This document shows, in pieces, positions 22,821 through 25,842 of a stretch of 29,483 nucleotides of DNA. Each line of letters starts with the position of its first letter. Positions within the stretch are counted from its first letter, which is position 1. The DNA is taken from positions 1-29,483 of the IMG/VR virus record IMGVR_UViG_3300030098_003893; one strand, written 5' to 3'. Both the position numbers and the translations under genes were made by a program. Below the pieces are notes generated by a model. It searched no databases, was not told the origin of the DNA, and worked only from the letters and a program-made list of their open reading frames with translations. This stretch comes from a virus.

Positions 22821-23127
22821 AATCTAACGTTAGCTCCTCACCCTTCTTTATATTACGCGATGTTACTAGGTTATAAATCTGACAATCATCCCAATCATGA
22901 ATCAGCTCTAAAAAACAATTTTCTTTTTCTGAATGATTTAAAAAGCCTCCAATAGGTGTTCGAATTAATCCTTTGTACATCGGCACGTTAATGTGCGTTG
23001 TGCCAAGATCAGTATCCTTTGGTATATTAACAACAGCAAATATACCAAGACCCTCAATGTCACTTTGACTGATTGTAATCTCATCAGGTAAAGGTCGATA
23101 GTAAAAGGGATTGTAAATGGGAATCAC
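22810..23127 (-). CDS. SET-domain protein (protein-lysine methyltransferase fold)
   Basis: A 105-residue protein starting with GTG at 23127, overlapping the upstream stop by four bases (GTGA). It shows the compact SET pattern: SDIEGLGIFA (22-31), GGFLNHSEKENC (60-71, with the NHS that binds the methyl donor) and NIKKGEELTLDYE (92-104, with the catalytic Tyr103). SET enzymes use S-adenosylmethionine to methylate lysine on proteins. It is short and lacks pre- and post-SET regions, as do other bacterial and phage forms. The target is unknown; host nucleoid or ribosomal proteins are possible. Confidence 0.8.
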   Translation of the reverse strand: MIPIYNPFYYRPLPDEITISQSDIEGLGIFAVVNIPKDTDLGTTHINVPMYKGLIRTPIGGFLNHSEKENCFLELIHDWDDCQIYNLVTSRNIKKGEELTLDYEK

Positions 23128-23267
23128 TCTCTGCTACCCAATGTTTCTTTGAGTAAAATTCTCAACTTATGATCCCACATCATTTTCAAATCCGGGTGAC
23201 CAGCTCTAGCTCTAGCCAGAACTATTTGATCAACTATCCTAGCAAATTTTTCTTTTATATACATCAT
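23124..23267 (-). CDS. Microprotein A, 47 residues, related to that at 24256-24393
   Basis: Read from the minus strand: ATG at 23267 (second ATG at 23264) with AGGAGA at an ideal distance; TGA at 23126-23124 overlaps the SET gene's GTG. It begins MMYIKEKFARIVDQIVLARA and ends WDHKLRILLKETLGSRE. It shares with the microprotein at 24256-24393 the order F..(I/M)(V/I)D...AR..A..PD.....W..KLR.LLK..L. This shared order and the strong ribosome site argue that both are genes. The start overlaps the end of the methyltransferase by 29 bp. Function unknown. Confidence 0.7.
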   Translation of the reverse strand: MMYIKEKFARIVDQIVLARARAGHPDLKMMWDHKLRILLKETLGSRE

Positions 23268-24195
23268 AGGTCTCCTTTATTGCTTGTCCGATTTTTTGCG
23301 CGATTTGGGGGATGATACTGTTTCCCAAGGCACGGAGTTGAGGTACTCGGTTGGGTAGCCCATCAACCAGGCGACCCACTGAGGGTTCAACTTCCCACCA
23401 CTGCTCTGCTCGGTATGACTCACCGCATCCTTCAGCTTCACGCCCCACCGTTCTCCCTTTTGATTTTTTCGGGAAAACGACCCCTTGTTTAGTTCCACGT
23501 TCTTTACCACCCCTCCCTCCGTGTCGCTTACTCTTGGAGTCGGCCACAGTTGTACTTCTGTCTCTAACCTTTTCTTCGGGTTGCCCTCTCGTATTTCCTT
23601 GCTTGATGGACCATTTGCCATTGAAACTCTTGGAGTCGGCCACAAACTCGAACCCCAACTGCCGTTGTCCCGCGTTGCCATCGAAGGAGCCATCTGGTTC
23701 GCTTTCGCTGTCGGAGTGTGCAACAATCCATAACCTTTGACGGAGGTGCGGGGCTCCGACCGAGCAAGCTGGAATATTAAACGTCCTTGTGGCGTAACCT
23801 TCGCTTTCCAAGTCAGCGAGTACTTCGTCCAAGCCCAATCGGATGAGTCCAACAACATTTTCTCCAACAACCCAAGTGGGCCGGCATTCCCTGATAAGCC
23901 TAAACATTTCTGGCCAGAGATGGCGGGGGTCGTCTTGGGCTTGCTGTCTTCCCGCTTGACTGAATGGCTGGCAAGGGAATCCTCCGCAAATAACATCGGG
24001 TCGGGTCGGGAGGTCTTCGGCTTTGACATTTTTTATATCTCCTAATACCGGGACTTCGGGCCAATGGTGTTTCAACACCGCTTGGCAGTATGGTTCGTTT
24101 TCTACAAATGATATTGTCTCAAAGAAACCAGTGGCTTCAAATCCTCTCGAGAAGCCACCAATTCCTGAGAATAAATCAAGAATGCGTAACACCAC
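23239..24195 (-). CDS. DNA (cytosine-5) methyltransferase
   Basis: A 318-residue enzyme with the C5-methyltransferase motifs in order: I DLFSGIGGF (7-15, methyl donor), IV GGFPCQPFS (71-79, catalytic Cys75), VI GENV (111-114), VIII RQRLWIV (152-158), then a polar target-recognition region rich in VADS and Lys/Arg, and X LGNSIIPQIA (290-299). It should methylate cytosine in a short site, protecting phage DNA from host nucleases; the site cannot be told. The start is a GTG at 24195 in a TAGTG junction; a TTG at 24210 is also in frame. The gene is visibly richer in G+C than its neighbours, which suggests acquisition. A second long frame lies inside it. Confidence 0.93.
   Translation of the reverse strand: MVLRILDLFSGIGGFSRGFEATGFFETISFVENEPYCQAVLKHHWPEVPVLGDIKNVKAEDLPTRPDVICGGFPCQPFSQAGRQQAQDDPRHLWPEMFRLIRECRPTWVVGENVVGLIRLGLDEVLADLESEGYATRTFNIPACSVGAPHLRQRLWIVAHSDSESEPDGSFDGNAGQRQLGFEFVADSKSFNGKWSIKQGNTRGQPEEKVRDRSTTVADSKSKRHGGRGGKERGTKQGVVFPKKSKGRTVGREAEGCGESYRAEQWWEVEPSVGRLVDGLPNRVPQLRALGNSIIPQIAQKIGQAIKETYDVYKRKIC
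23277..24029 (-). CDS. Overlapping alternative-frame ORF inside the methyltransferase, 250 residues
   Basis: A complete ATG-to-TAA frame on the same strand as the methyltransferase, in another frame. Its product has coherent segments: SVKREDSKPKTTPAISGQKC, then YSLTWKAKVTPQGRLIFQLA, two copies of LWPTPRVS, and near the end GGKLNPQWVAWLMGYPTEYL. I recall phage proteins with this same order (LTWK.K.T..GRL.FQL, WPTPT repeats, LNP.WVEWLMG.P) found next to C5 methyltransferases, but cannot check that here. Its TAA lies just before the AGGAGA and ATG of the downstream microgene, as expected for a real operon gene. No enzyme motif is recognised. It may be a genuine overprinted gene or a by-product of constraint on the methyltransferase. 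Confidence 0.45.
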   Translation of the reverse strand: MSKPKTSRPDPMLFAEDSLASHSVKREDSKPKTTPAISGQKCLGLSGNAGPLGLLEKMLLDSSDWAWTKYSLTWKAKVTPQGRLIFQLARSEPRTSVKGYGLLHTPTAKANQMAPSMATRDNGSWGSSLWPTPRVSMANGPSSKEIREGNPKKRLETEVQLWPTPRVSDTEGGVVKNVELNKGSFSRKNQKGERWGVKLKDAVSHTEQSSGGKLNPQWVAWLMGYPTEYLNSVPWETVSSPKSRKKSDKQ

Positions 24196-24263
24196 TACAT
24201 TCCTTGACAAAAACCTACAATAAAACTTCCAATCAATAAACCTATCAGTATTTCACTACCCAT
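24195..24263 (-). CDS. Single-span membrane microprotein, 22 residues
   Basis: The ATG at 24263 is preceded by AGGGAG with good spacing, and the TAG at 24197-24195 overlaps the methyltransferase GTG start. After MGSE, the chain is almost entirely hydrophobic (ILIGLLIGSFIVGF) with a CQGM end, enough for one membrane span. It overlaps the upstream microgene by 8 bp. Such a peptide could be a small membrane factor or just a leader whose translation couples the methyltransferase start. Confidence 0.5.
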   Translation of the reverse strand: MGSEILIGLLIGSFIVGFCQGM

Positions 24264-24393
24264 TGTAATTCTCCCTTAACATATTTTTTAGTAAAAAACG
24301 TAACTTATAATTCCAGATTGCTATGAAATCAGGATCCTTGGCATTGTCTCTTGCCTTGGTTAGATTATCTATCATTCTTTCAAAGTTGTGCAT
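24256..24393 (-). CDS. Microprotein B, 45 residues, related to that at 23124-23267
   Basis: The ATG at 24393 lies inside the end of the preceding zinc-ribbon gene (14-bp overlap), behind AGAGGGAGAA, and the TAG is at 24258-24256. It begins MHNFERMIDNLTKARDNAKD and has WNYKLRFLLKNML near the end. Aligned with microprotein A it keeps F, D, AR, A, PD, W, KLR and LLK. The two genes flank the methyltransferase, as if one had been duplicated around it. Probably helical; function unknown. Confidence 0.65.
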   Translation of the reverse strand: MHNFERMIDNLTKARDNAKDPDFIAIWNYKLRFLLKNMLRENYNG

Positions 24394-24544
24394 CAGGAAC
24401 TTCTCCCTCTGATTTACATTGATCACATTGTTCAATTTCTATAGTTTCAATATCAATGTCTTTATGATCCGCACACCAAAGGCTAGGCTCTAAAACAATC
24501 TTTCTCAAATATCCATTGCCATGACATACTTGACATATTTTCAT
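24380..24544 (-). CDS. Zinc-finger microprotein (CxxCxGxG type), 54 residues
   Basis: The ATG at 24544 follows GGAGGAAG, a nearly perfect ribosome site, and overlaps the previous stop by four bases (ATGA). The product begins MKICQVCHGNGYLRKIVLEP and later has EQCDQCKSEGE. The pairs Cys4/Cys7 with GNG and Cys40/Cys43 resemble one DnaJ-type zinc module (CxxCxGxG), a fold that binds zinc and often RNA, DNA or unfolded protein. Many phages encode such small zinc proteins; its partner is unknown. Confidence 0.65.
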   Translation of the reverse strand: MKICQVCHGNGYLRKIVLEPSLWCADHKDIDIETIEIEQCDQCKSEGEVPDAQL

Positions 24545-24981: not shown

Positions 24982-25842
24982 CTAATCAATGTAGCCTTTA
25001 ACGATTACGCCATTACCATAATGACGCACGCCACCCAGTATGGACTCTTCCGTATTCACCCAGTTGTACTGGGCGTTCGCCAAGAACACCGCCTTGGCAA
25101 AACCTCTCGGTGTAGCTGAACGTATGTTCTTGGTTCTCTGAGACTTTCCCCCTGTCTTCCCGGCGACAGGAGAATAGTTCTTACCCTTCTTGGGATCCTT
25201 GCGGTCATAGACCATTGTCTCATGAGCCACGGCATTTGACCTTGGCATCCTGAACCGATTGCCAACCCACAAGCAGGTTTTCTTGCGGTAGGCATCCCTT
25301 GGCGGAATGATCTCAGGCCAACGTGGATGCACATCATCTTCAGGCAAGTAACCACCGAAGTCACATGGATCAAACTTGTAATCGGGTTTACGCCACAATC
25401 TGGACAACGCACCAATGGGGTTCTCTATGTAGTAAGAGCAGTCAAACGCATCACCAACCATGGCACAGCGTTTAACATGATCAGATGCCTCCGTCTGGAA
25501 GTCTGGATTAGCTTCGCCCTTCTTCTTCCACCACATTGCACCACTGACCGCCAGATCCGTGCATGGAGGGAAGGCTGAAAGAAAAGCAACCTTGTTGTTA
25601 TGACGGGCAAGTATTTTAAGGGAAGTCTCAGGGTCATATAAGTCAGCGTGGATGAAAAAGATATTTCCACCACCGTCACCGTCACGTTCCCAAAAGGTCT
25701 CAACTCTATCAAGACCACCCCAAAGTCCCTTCTTGTCAGGCTTGTGTTGAATGTCATAAGCGAAACATTGATAACCAGCCTCTGCCCATGGACGCAAAGC
25801 TTCACCCGTATAATCGTATAGTGAAATGACATGGTTTCTCAT
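24982..25842 (-). CDS. C5 DNA methyltransferase-like protein, divergent
   Basis: A 286-residue protein with a reduced C5-methyltransferase plan. SLYDYTG (7-13) replaces the usual DLFSG; FPPCTDLAVSGA (91-102) carries the Pro-Cys of motif IV (Cys94); YIENPIGAL (138-146) takes the place of motif VI ENV; and ATPRGFAKAVFLAN near the C-terminus fits motif X. I recall phage proteins with PPCTDLAVSGA annotated as DNA cytosine methyltransferases. It should act on cytosine in DNA; whether it adds a methyl or another one-carbon group is unknown. The ATG overlaps the previous stop (ATGA). The gene is G+C-rich compared with the virion genes (34 of 60 bases in 25261-25320). Confidence 0.7.
   Translation of the reverse strand: MRNHVISLYDYTGEALRPWAEAGYQCFAYDIQHKPDKKGLWGGLDRVETFWERDGDGGGNIFFIHADLYDPETSLKILARHNNKVAFLSAFPPCTDLAVSGAMWWKKKGEANPDFQTEASDHVKRCAMVGDAFDCSYYIENPIGALSRLWRKPDYKFDPCDFGGYLPEDDVHPRWPEIIPPRDAYRKKTCLWVGNRFRMPRSNAVAHETMVYDRKDPKKGKNYSPVAGKTGGKSQRTKNIRSATPRGFAKAVFLANAQYNWVNTEESILGGVRHYGNGVIVKGYID

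Follow-up and report, generated by a model that had tools for sequence, protein, structure and literature searches.

We identified what is very probably (we put it at about 0.86) a C5-cytosine DNA methyltransferase composed of two polypeptides, both of them encoded, in different reading frames, by the same piece of phage DNA. The locus lies in a viral sequence of 29,483 nucleotides (IMG/VR record IMGVR_UViG_3300030098_003893), the whole of which is referred to below as the window. The long frame would specify a catalytic chain (alpha), and the protein of the second frame (beta) is most likely the target-recognition subunit of the same enzyme, containing recognition modules and motif IX, as judged from sequence comparisons. 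We favor this one-enzyme model because relatives carry the modules, motif IX and, at some loci, motif X as components of their methyltransferase, and alpha lacks the modules and motif IX.

Organization of the locus

The inner ORF (23277-24029, minus strand) extends from ATG to TAA, encodes 250 aa and is located entirely within the C5 methyltransferase ORF (23239-24210, minus strand), in the +1 frame of the latter. A previous sequence-only reading of this DNA had noted a 250-residue ATG-to-TAA frame on the methyltransferase strand, several segments in its product and a stop placed just before the AGGAGA and ATG of the next gene. All of these were recovered: the frame runs from 24029 to 23277, its product contains LWPTPRVS twice, TWKAKVTPQGRLIFQLA and a closing LNPQWVAWLMGYP, and the inner TAA is directly followed by AGGAGA and then by the start codon (ATG) of a small ORF at 23267. 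A Shine-Dalgarno sequence of the inner frame itself, listed below, had gone unmentioned in that reading. For alpha, a TTG codon gives the longest ORF, and a GTG at 24195 or 24192, which follows AAGGA, is a likelier start. The features of the locus are as follows.

23239..24210, minus strand: gene of the alpha chain, a C5-cytosine methyltransferase with motifs I-VIII and X (PF00145, E = 4.5e-43; AlphaFold)
23277..24029, minus strand: overprinted second gene (putative beta chain), 250 aa (phrog_1008, E = 2.8e-33; synonymous conservation over most of its length)
24038..24043, minus strand: Shine-Dalgarno sequence AGGAGA of the internal ATG, with 9 nt between GGAG and ATG
23724..24029, minus strand: N-terminal domain of beta, residues 1-102, which overlaps methyltransferase motifs IV-VIII and holds the predicted LTWKAKVTPQGRLIFQLA beta hairpin
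23643..23723, minus strand: putative recognition module 1, LHTPTAKANQMAPSM..., of a family of 78 copies that is nearly always in the first slot
23547..23642, minus strand: putative recognition module 2, WPTPRVSMANGPSSKEIREGNPKKRLETEVQL, from module extraction and family grouping
23397..23546, minus strand: putative recognition module 3, WPTPRVSDTEGGVVKNVELNKGSFSRKNQKGERWGVKLKDAV..., which recurs in the split locus L250
23337..23396, minus strand: probable motif IX, GGKLNPQWVAWLMGYPTEYL, read in the second frame and aligned with IX-X segments of actinophages and split genes
23278..23346, minus strand: motif X in the methyltransferase frame, LRALGNSIIPQIAQKIGQAI, with predicted helices at 289-298 and 300-322; G296, N297 and P301 are invariant in A5

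Two small ORFs (23124-23267 and 24256-24435, both on the minus strand) flank the methyltransferase and resemble paralogues, one containing ..ARARAGHPDLKMMWDHKLRILLKETL.. and the other ..ARDNAKDPDFIAIWNYKLRFLLKNML.. sequences. A second methyltransferase-like gene is present just upstream (24982-25842, minus strand; phrog_757, E = 5.4e-69).

Selection on both frames

Codon position 3 of the methyltransferase is position 2 of the inner frame, and inner position 3 is methyltransferase position 1, so the constraints of the two frames can be separated. Chance was assessed by shuffling synonymous codons within the methyltransferase gene, which leaves the protein and its codon usage unchanged. The longest +1 frame in 5000 shuffles had a mean length of 88 and a maximum of 218, compared with 251 observed, and none of the 5000 reproduced it; the longest third frame of the window methyltransferase (72) was unremarkable. 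A search with the inner protein yielded 80 viral loci, in essentially all of which the two frames were open, with PCQ in the outer one. Since such a search selects for the inner frame, a second set of homologues was gathered by methyltransferase sequence alone. The +1 frame was longer than in shuffles (p <= 0.005) in 51 of the 52 distinct complete homologues of this set, which, as counts from related loci, are not independent events; the third frame was longer than in shuffles in 0 of 52.

Codon identity in the methyltransferase frame was measured among same-amino-acid pairs from 40 representatives and compared with expectation. Upstream of the internal ATG it was at expectation (0.35-0.49), and at this ATG it jumped to 0.64 versus 0.43 expected. 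In nearly all intervals inside the second gene, values were 0.5-0.9 versus 0.33-0.46 expected, with a peak of 0.91 versus 0.40 and with 0.89-0.90 versus 0.42-0.43 at methyltransferase codons 133-150. Weaker stretches within the gene were motif IV (0.45 versus 0.42) and codons 229-240 (0.35 versus 0.33), and past the inner stop, codon identity dropped to 0.41 versus 0.46 expected. Divergence at third positions was 0.592 upstream, compared with 0.307 in the conserved dual block.

The module region was compared by means of nucleotide matches that were picked blind to frame. In matches at 75-85% identity, positions 1, 2 and 3 of the inner frame (ORF2) changed at 0.125, 0.139 and 0.362, respectively, and amino-acid identity was 0.81 in ORF2 versus 0.57 in the methyltransferase frame. 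All ungapped nucleotide matches in this region (2784/2784) were in phase. The methyltransferase frame of double-coded modules contained 1 stop in 24,410 codons and the third frame 1245, whereas modules outside the methyltransferase cover (those of split loci and five extra modules of locus L304) had 56 stops in 999 codons in the methyltransferase frame. Module 3 of the window was 76% identical to its counterpart in L250 in the inner frame, and 31% identical, with interruption by stops, in the methyltransferase frame.

These substitution patterns show that both frames are under selection and that the module region is guarded in both, chiefly in the second. It is because of selection on both frames that we regard the locus as an overprinted gene pair, as the sequence-only reading had proposed; synonymous constraint spans the inner ORF, and nearly all methyltransferase-selected homologues are open in the +1 frame. 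Its placement of the pair at the target-recognition region also agrees with our data. Homologues of the modules were not confined to overlapping genes, being found in split loci, actinophage enzymes and the L304 tail, and substitutions were constrained in both frames, within the modules mainly in the second, rather than in the methyltransferase frame alone. The same reading had placed similar phage proteins beside C5 methyltransferases; in nearly all loci found they are inside the gene and not beside it.

A Shine-Dalgarno sequence was present before 53 of 68 homologous inner starts (20.4 expected from synonymous shuffling) and before 14 of 449 internal ATGs. The remaining 15 of the 68 homologous starts had no recognisable Shine-Dalgarno sequence.

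The catalytic chain and the second-frame protein

The PF00145 match (E = 4.5e-43) covers residues 9-171 of alpha and ends after motif VIII. Catalytic motifs I, IV (PCQ), VI (ENV) and VIII were present, with sequence and fold matches to HhaI and HaeIII, and the HaeIII and HhaI methylases were also the best structural matches of the alpha model. In the AlphaFold prediction, the large domain and the C-terminal helix were confident, and residues 170-292, between motifs VIII and X, had pLDDT <50 and no structure. Neither motif IX nor a recognition domain was found in alpha by Pfam extent or AlphaFold, motif IX being located in the second frame. Alpha is predicted to have no folded recognition domain where the small domain belongs.

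Beta consists of a conserved N-terminal part, a middle part made of modules and a conserved end, LNP.WV.WLMG(F/Y)P. Each module begins with (L/M)(W/Y/F)PTP and finishes near L..AV. A set of 213 distinct proteins, each with 1 to 9 modules, gave 667 modules in total, of which 568 fell into 31 families with three or more copies. Most of these families recur in varying slots and neighbourhoods, a pattern that points to exchangeable recognition units. The PHROG 1008 profile matched residues 13-232 of beta (E = 2.8e-33), and other PHROG matches were methyltransferase families or families of unknown function. No match to beta was found in Pfam (E <= 1), NCBIfam, PADLOC or PDB sequences.

The closing segment of beta, LNPQWVAWLMGYP, appears to be C5 motif IX. 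A profile of the IX-X segment matched plant DRM C5 methyltransferases in PDB at motifs IX-X (best E = 0.0077), and 6 of its 7 PDB matches were C5 methyltransferases; single IX-X segments had no match to PDB by phmmer, and the relationship was detected by the profile only. With a moderate E-value and homology through intermediates, motif IX is the most likely assignment. AlphaFold modeled beta alone poorly (pLDDT 63.9, pTM 0.26) and did not confirm a fold, although a beta hairpin was predicted at about residues 71-91 (pLDDT 92-94 over 71-90). A poor prediction of beta by itself might be expected of half a domain; it fits this possibility without proving it.

Natural rearrangements in related loci

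Several relatives divide the same parts differently. In four split loci, L171 (Brevibacillus), L241, L250 and L268, alpha stops just past motif VIII; the inner frame runs on through the modules, LNPDWVE.LMGFP (motif IX) and motif X. In actinophages Twister (gp78), Leona (gp42) and Vash (gp33), modules, IX and X are on a second gene, already annotated separately as DNA methylase; the two genes overlap by 50 nt in Twister, 32 nt in Vash and 251 nt in Leona. DLane gp65 carries four modules, IX and X in the same frame as motifs I-VIII (ORF2 profile, E = 3.8e-14). The Papez alpha contains I-VIII, IX and X but is devoid of modules; nothing beyond the N-terminal domain and one module is present in its +1 frame. 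The inner gene was absent in two canonical Vibrio phage methyltransferases, which have an in-frame motif IX (RVTPEERLKLQGFP). In L304 (2943-4749), the inner frame has 602 codons, of which approximately 230 are past the methyltransferase stop; this tail contains five extra LWPTP modules, and the methyltransferase frame is closed there. In most rearranged loci, the parts missing from one chain sit in the other.

In three loci (L319 of DLane, L314 of Tweety and L331 of prophiGD91-2), the module array is divided between the two frames: one or two modules at its start are read in +1, and those that follow are, together with IX-X, in the catalytic frame, with the switch falling at a module boundary. 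Such arrays could reflect an old indel, reinitiation or frameshifting. They are not explained by a simple alpha-beta split, and labour is divided differently across loci. In L065/L152 (the same contig), a single-base indel swaps the frames, such that the methyltransferase N-terminus runs into the ORF2 modules in one open frame; this exchange may be a sequencing error or a natural fusion, and the locus was left out of the evidence.

A probable two-chain enzyme and alternative explanations

In the model that we favor, the long frame would yield alpha, a chain responsible for catalysis that has motifs I-VIII and X and a disordered linker between VIII and X. Translation of beta would start at the internal ATG, served by a ribosome-binding site of its own, giving a protein with an N-terminal hairpin domain, three exchangeable recognition modules and motif IX. 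Beta would contribute the DNA-reading small domain, and the two chains would assemble into the enzyme. With several modules per array, and presumably one site per module, one enzyme could protect several sites; its presumed role is protection against host restriction. The modules would travel between phages as DNA cassettes that have to remain open in both frames. It seems reasonably probable that double-coded methyltransferases of this type are widespread in phages, with the DNA-reading modular array in the second frame and with specificity changed by swaps of such cassettes.

Alternatively, beta might be translated but act independently, for example as an anti-restriction protein, a regulator or a nuclease that merely lies inside the methyltransferase gene. 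The product has no Pfam, NCBIfam or PADLOC match, its N-terminal hairpin domain is relatively independent, and some phage methylase genes are known to harbor out-of-frame HNH proteins (PMC11855218), all of which would agree with such a role. We consider it unlikely, as the modules, motif IX and sometimes motif X belong to the methyltransferase in relatives, beta occupied the same frame of a C5 methyltransferase in 150 of 150 loci, and alpha is without exactly the parts that beta has. Programmed ribosomal frameshifting could also fuse the frames into one full-length enzyme, and in split loci of the L171 type a shift after motif VIII would indeed place I-VIII, modules, IX and X in one chain. However, synonymous constraint begins at the internal ATG, approximately 100 codons ahead of the end of motif VIII, both this ATG and its Shine-Dalgarno sequence are conserved, and the window would need two shifts because motif X is back in frame 0; we hold little expectation that frameshifting is the explanation.

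Almost no credence can be given to the idea that the open second frame is an unused by-product of the methyltransferase amino acids and codon bias. Some similarity in the second frame is automatic, as its N-terminal FAEDSLAS is a shifted reading of GGFPCQPFS in motif IV, where the excess of conservation is weak (0.45 versus 0.42 expected). Codon shuffles that keep the protein and its codon usage nevertheless fail to reproduce the frame, conservation of the module region falls on ORF2 positions 1 and 2 and not on position 3, and beta homologues occur without a methyltransferase frame. The opposite view, in which the module region matters in the second frame only and the catalytic frame is decaying there, would accommodate both the low amino-acid identity of the methyltransferase frame in the modules (0.40-0.57 in more divergent matches) and the predicted disorder of this region of alpha. 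Yet the methyltransferase frame stays open in nearly every locus (1 stop per 24,410 codons) and leads on to the conserved motif X, which makes decay extremely improbable.

Comparison with known systems

The two-polypeptide organization proposed here has partial counterparts among characterized methyltransferases. The gene for the small chain of M.EcoHK31I lies within that for the large chain, in another frame. In the account of this enzyme (recognition sequence YGGCCR) that PMC3404938 gives with reference to Lee et al. 1995, the large chain has motifs I-VIII and X and the small chain has motif IX. This is the distribution of motifs that we assign to alpha and beta of the window. According to the same account, the predicted recognition domain of M.EcoHK31I is in the large chain, whereas the putative modules of the window are in the second frame, are several and appear exchangeable. 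M.EcoHK31I is also part of a restriction-modification system, whereas the window has a phage gene, beside which no restriction enzyme was noticed. In M.AquI (CYCGRG), one chain contains motifs I-VIII and the other contains IX, X and the final part of the variable region (PMC3404938). Loci L171, L250, L268, Twister and Vash have a layout of this kind, and a small chain of the M.AquI type with IX and X occurs in L171, L241, L250 and L268 and not in the window, where, unlike in M.AquI, the catalytic chain holds motif X and overprinting extends over the entire second gene. What is new with respect to both M.EcoHK31I and M.AquI is the modular array in the second frame and the breadth of the family.

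Multispecific methyltransferases of Bacillus phages, such as M.H2I, have tandem target-recognition domains in one chain (PMC8936443). Several recognition units in tandem and a phage origin are shared with the window enzyme, but M.H2I-type enzymes use a single chain and a single frame, whereas the modules of the window are in the +1 frame and have no known sequence kinship with them. The ShiLan element, an out-of-frame HNH in a phage methylase gene, is a homing insertion that encodes a nuclease (PMC11855218). Like beta, its product is an additional protein concealed in an alternative frame of a phage methylase gene; unlike it, beta is an intrinsic and widely conserved part, and beta had no HNH-family match (Pfam at E <= 1, PHROG). 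M.BatI from a Bacillus prophage has a CxGxxG motif I and a very short recognition region, and its catalytic mutant stays toxic (PMC8936443). Its motif I and short recognition region fit the beta-bearing group, which we take as a lead only.

Distribution and annotation

A genome scan with a single beta protein gave no match, and a scan with the beta alignment detected 80 loci. Alignment searches added 150 further loci, in all of which (150/150) the inner frame was in the same phase of a C5 methyltransferase. According to record titles, the genome matches are from Bacillota, Bacteroidota, Chlorobiota, Verrucomicrobiota, Chloroflexota, Actinomycetota, alpha-, gamma- and deltaproteobacteria, Nitrospirota, Acidobacteriota and Neomarinimicrobiota; many of them probably represent prophages or binned phage contigs. 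The pair is also present in cultivated phages of Paenibacillus (Shelly gp55/gp56), Lacticaseibacillus, Escherichia (phiEc3, L326), Edwardsiella, Sulfitobacter and Synechococcus, as well as in mycobacterial phages.

If this reading is true, many phage genes now listed as single methyltransferases, or assigned to the wrong frame, encode two-subunit enzymes, and cloning or mutating "the methyltransferase" may have altered a second protein unknowingly. Few overprinted gene pairs of DNA viruses would be longer or more widely conserved. The modules would constitute a natural parts list for sequence recognition, with about 30 recurrent cassettes in our sample, each of which can be tested for its site, and the same cassettes are free of overlap in split loci and can be studied there. 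The evolvability of an overprinted pair becomes testable as well, since new specificity would arrive as cassettes open in two frames.

Members of the beta family have entered annotation under different names. Paenibacillus phage Shelly gp56 ("g55 internal gene") belongs to this family, and an internal gene is annotated in some P. larvae phages. The labels of PHROG 1008 and Shelly gp56 are "DNA methyltransferase" or "hypothetical"; no stated function or account of the overlap was found for this family, and our search of the accessible literature found no earlier description of the overlap. In Stenotrophomonas phage SOVA965 (L332), it is the second-frame protein that bears the annotation DNA-cytosine methyltransferase. 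Annotation thus mixes the two frames, PHROG 1008 bearing the same methyltransferase label as this protein. In Gordonia phage Sitar (gp4/gp5, L320), an HNH gene annotated "delete" is located inside the methylase gene and resembles the out-of-frame HNH insertion of PMC11855218.
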